Source of the DNA: Cliona cf. orientalis
Lineage: Eukaryota > Porifera > Demospongiae > Clionaida > Clionaidae
Direction of reading: 5' to 3'
NCBI GenBank assembly: GCA_963930775.1
Contig: OZ005702.1
Coordinates: forward strand, 930,001-994,000
DNA: 64,000 bases
The stretch's first letter is position 1. Each line of letters starts with the position of its first letter. A program made the translations under genes and the position numbers. The notes below the pieces were generated by a model that did no database searches, had not been told where the DNA came from, and worked only from the letters and a program-made list of their open reading frames with translations. Below, piece after piece: positions 15,481 to 33,131 of this stretch.

Positions 15481-18400
15481 TTATTTTCTACTAGAAAGCT
15501 TGGCTGCGGCACCAAGAGGACCCCCATTGGCACTGGGGCTGTCGGGGGAGATGGGACAGGACTCGGCACTACTGCTGGCACGCTTCAGCTTGTTGAGGAG
15601 ATTCACTGCCTTGAATGCCCTTGCAACGGCCTGCCGTGTGTGTGTGTGTGGAGAGAGTGTGAAATTGAACTTGAATATCAAAGGATGGCTGATGAGGCAT
15701 GGGTAAAAATTAATTTCAGCAGGGAAGCGGAATCTCAAAGTCGACTGGAGTGCAGTTTTGGAGAATTACTCAAAAACGGTTTTTGACTTTGCTAGTCTAT
15801 CGAACTATATGAAGACCTTCCATTATGAAAGCACGCAGAAAATATCTATGTAGCTAATAGCTCAATAGACAAGCCTTTTGCTTGTAATTTTCGAGCCAAT
15901 TCTCCTACATAACTATTTGCTTGAGGAAAATGCTTTCAAGCTTGTTATTCCATCTCTCACCATCCACTTTCTTCTGGCCTTGAATGCCTTGAGCCTGCTG
16001 GTCCCGATCTTAGCAGCCCCACCCTTGGAAGGTGCGGATATCCAATCATGTGTTATACACTGCTCAGCTGTCAGTCTCTCCCTGTGAAAATAATAACAAT
16101 TATGACGTTGTAATAGTCTATTGTGCGGGTGCATGTACATGTGTATAATAATATTATAGCCTCGTGCCCATCCCTATATTCCCACCTTTTCAATGTTACA
16201 GGTGGGAATAGGGATGGGCACGAGGCTATGTGTATAGGTGTGTGTACATGCCATGGTGATAAGAGAGAGAAAAGGGCTTCGAAGTAGAATCTGAGGACTG
16301 TCATAATTATCACAAATGTGTTGTGGTACTGCCGGTAGTCTGTGGAATTTGAATGCTAGTTAACTGAATTCTAAGGAAATGCTGCATGCAATCAGTTCCA
16401 CTTGACCACAGACAAATTGATAATGCTCGCCCAGCATTTTATAGGATCATGTACTCGTAACATGCACACAGAGAAAACAAGGGGGTGGCAGCAATAACTT
16501 TTCAAGATTGCTTTTATTCTCAAGCTACATAGCTTACTTTGGTTTGAGGATCACTGCCGGCTACCTGTAGCTAGCTTACTTTGGATTGAGGATTGTGTAG
16601 CTACCTACTGGCTTACTTTGGTTTGAGGGCCAGTAGGCCATCGATGAATTCCTTGGCCAGATCAGAGATGTCCTCGTAGTTCTCTTCCGGCTCCGGGTAT
16701 TCGTACTCACCGGATGAGATATTCTGAATTGTCTCCATATCGTCATCACCAAGGAAAGGAGACATCCCAGTCAGACTAGATTGAGAATCGTGATATTATA
16801 ATATTATTATTATCATTGCATGTGGCGTGTGTGTGTATAATATTTCATGCAGTTTGTTGTGGCTATCAGATGAGCTTGGTCACTATGCTATAATAATACA
16901 CAATAATATTATTATGTCACTACCTGACTGTATCTAGTTAATAATGTGAACTTACAGGACGTATGTGATTACTCCAATGGCCCTGTACGAAGGAAGAAAA
17001 CAAGAAACAAGAACTGAATTTACGCACACCAATCTACATCAGCACCCACGCAATGCAACAAAATCGTATGTAGACCGATACTATTACCGGTATAGTTCTA
17101 GACACTCATCCTCTGTGAATCCCACATGATACAGTACATGCATGGGATATTGATTTCCAAGGAGACTCAGACTAGAGCCACAGGAAATGTAATCAACAAC
17201 TGTCAACCAATCCATATGCTATCTAGTTGATACGTACGTGCGTCAATCGATACATGATCGTCGTGTGATACACATGCACCGTCTAGCTAGCTATAGCTAT
17301 AGCTGTGGCCATGACCCATGGCTCTATATATCTGCATGATAATAATAATAATAATATTATGGAGTGTTATCGTGTGTACGTACGGGGAATAGCATATCAT
17401 TACTGCGTGTGAAGCTATCTTGTAGCTACTTCTTGTGGGATGTGTAGTTACACAAAAATGCGGCTTTTCTGACACAGAGGACAAACTGTCTACACCGATC
17501 TTTACAGTATTATCACTGGACCCCGCCTGTATAATAATAATAATAATAGTAGTATGTATACACCTCCCAGTTGTTACAGGTATCTCTCAATGCTTGCAAT
17601 GTGATCCTATTGCCAACGGTGTACGTACACAAATGACCTTCCACTTTTATTACAGCTACAATCAAAACAGTCCAGCCTGTGTACACTGTGTGCATAGGTG
17701 CCTGTGTATAGAATATGCGGGCCGTACGAAGCTTGGATCGCACTGCTGTGACAACAGTGGTTTGTATGAAGCTCCCCTCCCCCACTGTTAAGTATTCTGC
17801 ATCTAGGAAAGATTGTTATTGGCAAATGCAAAACGCAAATGCACACGTACGATCATGCAATAAAATGTGTGCACAATCAAGATCACTTAATTGATCCTGA
17901 TTCAGTATACATACTAGAGCTAGTTATTTCAGTGTGCTAGTTTCATAAATACTATAGTATATATCTTGCTATGCAGCTACCCAGCATTAATATATTATTA
18001 TATTGCAACACTACTCACCACATGTCAGATGCACATGTTACTGCTTCAAAACTGACTGCTTCTGGAGCTATTAGGTGTGGCATGGGAGGAGAGGAAAGGA
18101 GAGAGAGAGAGAGAGAGAGAGAGAGAGCAAAGAAGTATAATTTCACAGTAGTTTATTTTGACCTTCTAGCTGTAAACAAAACTGTATATATATACGTATG
18201 CACACTTGAACTTCAAGCACCCTCTTATTCGTTCACTTGATCACACAAATGATGCATAGAGGCACACACCCCACGTGTGGATATAACATCATAAGACACC
18301 AAGACTTGAATGCAATGACTGTTTATCAATATGATTCACACATACAGCATACTTACAATATGTCATTTTGCATAGCAGTATATTGCATATTATGTGTATA

Positions 18401-33131: not shown

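Follow-up and report, generated by a model that had tools for sequence, protein, structure and literature searches.

DAPK2, DAPK3 and STK17 (DRAK) are kinases of the same family as DAPK1 and have no ankyrin (ANK), ROC, COR and death-domain (DD) part. According to PMC6337361, DAPK1 represents group 3 of the ROCO proteins, which is exclusively metazoan and marked by a death domain, and in which the kinase precedes RocCOR; GTP binding to the ROC domain of human DAPK1 is reported there to inhibit the kinase. No split or kinase-less DAPK1 was found in the literature covered, which included the accessible sections of PMC8195603, PMC4104024 and PMC6337361; the subscription ROCO surveys (Marin) lay outside this scope.

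In this study, we analysed a stretch of 64,000 nucleotides (C14:930001-994000, hereafter the window) on an 8.4-Mb contig of the genome of the sponge Cliona cf. orientalis (216.8 Mb, 149 contigs). The modules of DAPK1 were found here in two neighbouring genes, A and B, and this split arrangement was confirmed to be real and well-formed. The ankyrin-to-death-domain part of DAPK1 is matched colinearly by gene A, and the DAPK1 kinase with its calmodulin (CaM) helix is the best PDB match of gene B. DAPK1 is, however, one chain, whereas the window holds two genes with the kinase downstream of the death domain.

Structure of the locus

The models of both genes are predictions from DNA alone. The features are as follows.

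24398..32263, minus strand: gene A, kinase-less DAPK1-type gene (ANK-ROC-COR-death); spliced model, domains and colinearity with human DAPK1
32237..32263, minus strand: gene A exon 1, predicted start, MDTTAEKLK; spliced model and start context
29156..31035, minus strand: gene A exons 2-9, ankyrin repeats; Pfam Ank and phase-0 introns
31035-30925, 30793-30695, 30428-30333 and 30252-30154, minus strand: gene A exons 2-5; spliced model
30065-29868, 29739-29641, 29553-29455 and 29332-29156, minus strand: gene A exons 6-9; spliced model
27862..28707, minus strand: gene A exon 10, ROC GTPase-like domain; Roc 1.2e-9, motifs GAAGVGKT and WDFSG
27080..27268, minus strand: gene A exon 11, start of COR; COR-A (639-767) spans exons 11-12
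24398..25606, minus strand: gene A exon 12, remaining COR, death domain and stop codon; spliced model and Pfam
24479..24712, minus strand: gene A death domain; PF00531, 60.7 bits, E 2.7e-14
23843..24397, minus strand: intergenic spacer of 555 bp from the gene A stop to the gene B ATG, both on the same strand
15481..23842, minus strand: gene B, Ser/Thr kinase with CaM-type helix; Pkinase 2.2e-67, PDB DAPK1 237.7 bits
23842-23766, 23042-22842, 20341-20203, 19822-19699 and 18067-18019, minus strand: gene B exons 1-5; spliced model
16982-16956, 16775-16617, 16081-15961 and 15630-15481, minus strand: gene B exons 6-9; spliced model
15481..16081, minus strand: gene B exons 8-9, end of the kinase, helix ARRKWMAVARAFKAVNLLNKLKRA and Ser/Pro-rich tail; model and motifs

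Gene A has 12 predicted exons. Their single open frame starts with an ATG at 32263, closes with a TAG whose last base is 24398 and encodes 1082 aa; all introns are GT..AG and in phase 0. Exon 1, with only 27 bp of coding sequence, is the weakest exon of the model. Gene B comprises 9 predicted exons encoding 348 aa. At the start of either gene, positions -3 and +4 are occupied by G, and the start context of gene A is good. Within the spacer, ATTAAA occurs 44 and 325 bases past the gene A stop. These models bear out what a sequence-only reading of this DNA had proposed, namely a complete DAPK1-type ANK-ROC-COR-death gene with its own ATG, kinase-less in the window, and a complete, separate gene for a kinase with a CaM-type helix downstream of it. 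That reading had also argued against a single canonical gene interrupted by an overlooked splice; indeed, the order of A then B on one strand, with the kinase 3' of the death domain, rules out such a gene.

Elsewhere in the window, beyond the 3' end of gene B, two plus-strand frames (2191-4548 and 11972-13285) each close with the initial part of a PARP domain; one of these matches is just below the Pfam cut-off. Segments 4207-4506 and 12920-13219 are 72% alike, and 11317-11397 and 14454-14534 are 81% alike. On the minus strand, a DUF1674 gene (38704-39186) and a BTB-BACK-Kelch gene (53110-54957) were observed. The window showed no tRNAs and no Rfam matches. Searches of viral and prokaryote collections gave no relatives.

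Gene A corresponds to the tail of DAPK1

Pfam analysis of the predicted protein identified ankyrin repeats (Ank_2, 2e-64), Roc (aa 357-471, 1.2e-9, above the cut-off), COR-A (aa 639-767, 6.4e-8, 33.0 bits, just below the cut-off of 35.3) and a C-terminal death domain (aa 979-1056, 2.9e-15), which is the domain order of DAPK1. A P-loop, GAAGVGKT, is located at aa 362 and WDFSG at aa 419; both ROC segments cited in the sequence-only reading as DAPK1-like map to the exon at 28707-27862. An N-terminal kinase in the same chain is absent from predicted gene A, within the window.

We then compared gene A with human DAPK1 (1430 aa). The ankyrin part showed 47% identity to residues 372-667 (296 columns, 276 bits), and the ROC-COR-DD part showed 29% identity over 676 columns to residues 791-1399, with 254 bits. 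As controls for the latter, 100 shuffles gave at most 28.9 bits. The highest score for 18 genomic stretches carrying other ROCO or death-domain genes was 59 bits; two of these stretches overlap and many are partial. Gene A is thus nearer to DAPK1 than to the other ROCO proteins of the genome that were compared. The ankyrin repeats alone carry little information, other frames of the genome reaching 34% identity and 95 bits with part of them in a search that scored 150 of 1639 candidates and returned generic ankyrin frames. Among the best 60 of 496 PDB matches, gene A matched ankyrin, TRP, latrotoxin-type and DARPin chains, and no DAPK1 chain was present. Its death domain had the top PF00531 score, 60.7 bits, among the 150 of 1292 genome candidates scored. 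Given the DAPK1-type domains, the colinear alignment, the P-loop and WDFSG motifs and the top death-domain match, gene A, as predicted, is a DAPK1 tail standing as its own gene.

Gene B encodes a kinase of the DAPK/STK17/MLCK/titin group

The Pkinase domain of gene B covers aa 18-273 (2.2e-67, Pfam) and contains the kinase motifs to be expected, CAIK, HLDLKPEN and DFG. The domain is followed by a putative CaM-binding helix, ARRKWMAVARAFKAV, whose sequence fits the 1-5-8-14 calmodulin pattern; in ARRKWMAVARAFKAVNLLNKLKRA, W-A-F-L occupy positions 1-5-8-14 of the motif. The best PDB matches were DAPK1, DAPK2 and DAPK3 (237.7, 232.1 and 230.7 bits), and the next were twitchin, STK17A and MYLK4 (207.9, 206.2 and 205.3 bits). 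Identity was highest to DAPK3 (43.8%), with 42.2% to DAPK1, 42.1% to STK17A and 40.9% to MYLK4. Gene B differs from DAPK1 in lacking most of the basic loop, seven residues between strand 3 and helix C, and in its long end branch, 1.39 as against 0.09-0.19 for the human DAPKs.

Maximum likelihood trees were constructed with 16, 14 and 15 rows. In these trees, gene B fell within the DAPK/STK17/MLCK/titin group and outside CaMK1/2, with support of 100/100, 100/99 and 100/99, but a clade with DAPK1-3 was absent from the best trees; the AU test did not reject such a clade (p-AU of 0.133 and 0.148). Like DAPK2, DAPK3 and STK17, gene B is a stand-alone kinase of the group, yet the trees did not place it with them; grouping with STK17A/B and the STK17-like kinase on contig C11 (see below) was not rejected either (p-AU of 0.151). 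Values of 0.11 and 0.093 were obtained for gene B with the C11 kinase alone and with DAPK+STK17, respectively. MLCK, twitchin and titin belong to the same group, and the ARRKW-type helix of MLCK is similar to that of gene B. Placement in an MLCK-only clade (MYLK1, MYLK4) was rejected, with p-AU of 0.009 and 0.008 (0.0088, 0.0084), and so was placement with twitchin/titin alone (0.019 and 0.015), but not placement with MLCK, twitchin and titin together (0.289). Placement with the MLCK/titin-like kinase on contig C19 gave 0.287. Gene B, which the trees leave unplaced within the group and which lacks most of the basic loop, is therefore at most compatible with a DAPK kinase, the AU test favouring no single placement in the group.

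Related kinases and DAPK1-like genes in the genome

Besides gene B, the kinases of the group that were seen in the genome are the STK17 homologue on C11 and the MLCK/titin-like pair on C19; these three loci are a lower bound. The C11 kinase, of which three exons were read, grouped with human STK17A/B (93/92), and its grouping with DAPK1-3 instead had a p-AU of 0.049; in its model, the C-lobe exon at C11:712 kb is joined by assumption to the gene at 725-729 kb. The C19 pair (C19:4278001-4288000) is made up of two DAPK/MLCK-like kinases in tandem on a single strand. The catalytic motifs of the second are degenerate, and the pair resembles one of obscurin or SPEG type. Read by eye, five intron positions and phases are common to gene B and the C19 kinase (after EL, between LK and PEN, before PE, between TYVL and L, and after RKW[MH]), and three positions are common to gene B and the C11 kinase. 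On these predicted models, the common introns of the three kinases show the family and not DAPK membership.

Searches with segments of known kinases covered all candidates: the human DAPK1 basic-loop segment gave 72 matches (125 of 125 candidates scored), the DAPK1 C-lobe segment 18 (60 of 60) and a twitchin segment 82 (142 of 142). The sequence was inspected for 11 of the 18 C-lobe matches and for a minority of the 72 and of the 82, and no DAPK1-3-type kinase besides gene B was present among the inspected part. Apart from the C11 and C19 kinases, the other inspected matches were read by eye as AMPK, MSK/RSK, CaMK, AGC, TSSK-like and tyrosine kinases. Whole-domain searches, which are biased to long single-exon kinases, scored 116 candidates out of 857 and 127 out of 1048. 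No full-length DAPK was seen elsewhere in the genome among the candidates scored, a result with gaps because the searches scored part of the candidates in big families. The finding named in advance as contrary to the split, a full-length DAPK elsewhere with gene B firmly outside DAPK, was not obtained in these genome searches, which have gaps.

Two further kinase arrays were observed. At C7:8.486-8.509 Mb, ten tandem Ser/Thr kinase frames with an intronless domain are accompanied by an eleventh, interrupted match. A single frame of 2925 codons at C17:2316568-2324868 contains many tandem domains that are tyrosine-kinase-like, as classed by eye.

The ROCO family is very largely expanded in this genome, with at least 150 COR-A matches (150 of 290 candidates scored), all but three of those listed being above the Pfam cut-off. 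Most of these fall within single open frames whose length ranges from several hundred to over 3000 codons, for example at C2:9.23-9.75 Mb, C7:1.88-2.12 Mb, C14:7.55-7.78 Mb and C16:0.87-0.95 Mb. Death domains are likewise expanded, with at least 150 PF00531 matches (150 of 1292 scored) and clusters on, for example, C2, C4, C6, C8, C10 and C18. Together with expanded ankyrin genes and a compact gene structure, these features would suit a sponge genome.

Besides the window, COR and a death domain share a strand and lie no more than a few kb apart at two places, C14:1.32 Mb and C4:8.69 Mb, when positions are paired by eye among the scored candidates (150 of 290 for PF16095, 150 of 1292 for PF00531). 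Both were tried as a second DAPK1-tail gene, using 10 kb and 5 kb of sequence, respectively, and neither matched the ANK or COR-death part of gene A. A second tail could escape the PF16095 list, since the window's own intron-split COR is absent from it. The C14:1.32 Mb locus (4591-8840 of the local piece) contains a tyrosine-kinase-like C-terminal fragment, ROC, COR and a death domain on one strand; ROC, a weak match below the cut-off, shares one 1010-codon frame with COR. If these parts form one gene, their order resembles that of DAPK1, but the kinase is an unrelated one. The C4:8.69 Mb locus is a ROCO-death gene unlike the DAPK1 tail.

Origin of the split arrangement

We consider it about an even chance that genes A and B derive from a single ancestral DAPK1 gene that came apart into two halves in this lineage, with their order permuted. 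Gene A would have retained the ankyrin repeats through the death domain, and gene B the kinase with its calmodulin-type autoregulatory helix. Jointly, they cover human DAPK1, and the break falls in the linker that follows the CaM helix: gene B corresponds to the kinase through the CaM helix, and gene A to the region from the linker before the ankyrins to the death domain. With the kinase now 3' of the death domain and in the same orientation, such an arrangement would arise most simply by tandem duplication of the whole fused DAPK1 gene and then complementary losses, in which the first copy lost its kinase end and the second its ANK-DD end. Neither a remnant of the lost kinase upstream nor one of the lost ANK-DD part downstream was found in the window by tblastn and phmmer. 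Near A and B, no long direct repeats beyond CT/GA microsatellites were present, and the junction showed no duplication scars. Chance adjacency of gene B to the sole DAPK1-tail gene is unlikely, because few kinases of the group were seen in the genome; a post hoc estimate, assuming three kinase loci (the lower bound) and 25,000 genes, is about 2 in 10,000. Fission is favoured over coincidence and over a pre-fusion state, and the direction of change is unpolarised because a single genome was compared.

It is doubtful, in our judgement, that the two genes are coincidental neighbours, gene A being a DAPK1 gene that lost or never had its kinase and gene B an independent kinase of the group. This would agree with the unplaced position of gene B and the unrecovered DAPK clade, with the loss of most of the basic loop and, as read by eye, with the five intron positions common to gene B and the C19 kinase. 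Furthermore, placements with MLCK+twitchin+titin (0.289) or with the C19 kinase (0.287) not only stand in the AU test but do better than that with DAPK1-3 (0.133), which counts against the split of one gene. However, DAPK1-3 are the top PDB matches of gene B, and of just three loci of the group seen in 216.8 Mb, a lower bound, one sits 555 bp from the DAPK1-tail gene.

A pre-fusion ancestral state, in which an ANK-ROC-COR-DD gene adjoined a CaM kinase before their fusion into DAPK1 elsewhere, appears decidedly improbable. Both genes are predicted to be complete and are adjacent, gene B branches deeply in the kinase group, and a tandem duplication with one deletion could bring the kinase and ANK together in the order known from other animals. 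The deep position can, however, be given artificially by the long branch of gene B, and a single genome provides no polarity and no sign that sponges generally are without a fused DAPK1.

That misassembly or missed exons conceal a canonical gene, with the kinase exons truly upstream of gene A, is very hard to credit. The gene models are predicted from DNA, and the A-B junction occurs once in the 216.8-Mb genome, so that the gene order comes from a single haplotype. Yet the window contains no N, the contig is long and the junction is unique. In-frame stops lie 22 codons upstream of the start of gene A and 48 codons upstream of that of gene B, and no kinase exon was found 5' of gene A up to window position 64000 by tblastn and six-frame phmmer with the human DAPK1 kinase and gene B as queries; the same searches showed none anywhere else in the window apart from those of gene B.

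Co-transcription of A and B with splicing into an ANK-ROC-COR-DD-kinase chain of LRRK-like order can practically be set aside, for although the short spacing and a GT 13 bases before the last base of gene A, phase-compatible by eye, would allow it, this donor scores 5/9 against 7-8 for the 19 donors in the models, which makes spliced read-through unlikely, and the product would drop exon 1 of gene B with the first kinase strand.

Functional implications

If genes A and B are the separated halves of a DAPK1 gene, their domains and the example of human DAPK1 suggest that gene B would be a Ca2+/calmodulin-regulated Ser/Thr kinase freed from cis control, and gene A a scaffold built on a ROC-COR GTPase, whose ankyrin repeats and death domain would offer docking surfaces. 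With the kinase and ROC on separate chains, GTP control would act in trans or be lost, and gene A could act alone or recruit gene B in trans. A two-component DAPK, in which a kinase-less GTPase and a CaM kinase encoded side by side would act in trans, either as a pre-fusion relic or as a re-split gene, is unlikely at present. Such a split in an early-branching animal, if true, would mean that the kinase and the GTPase-death scaffold can exist apart. It would also provide a natural test of how far DAPK1 function needs one chain, and would bear on the origin of the fused DAPK1 gene.
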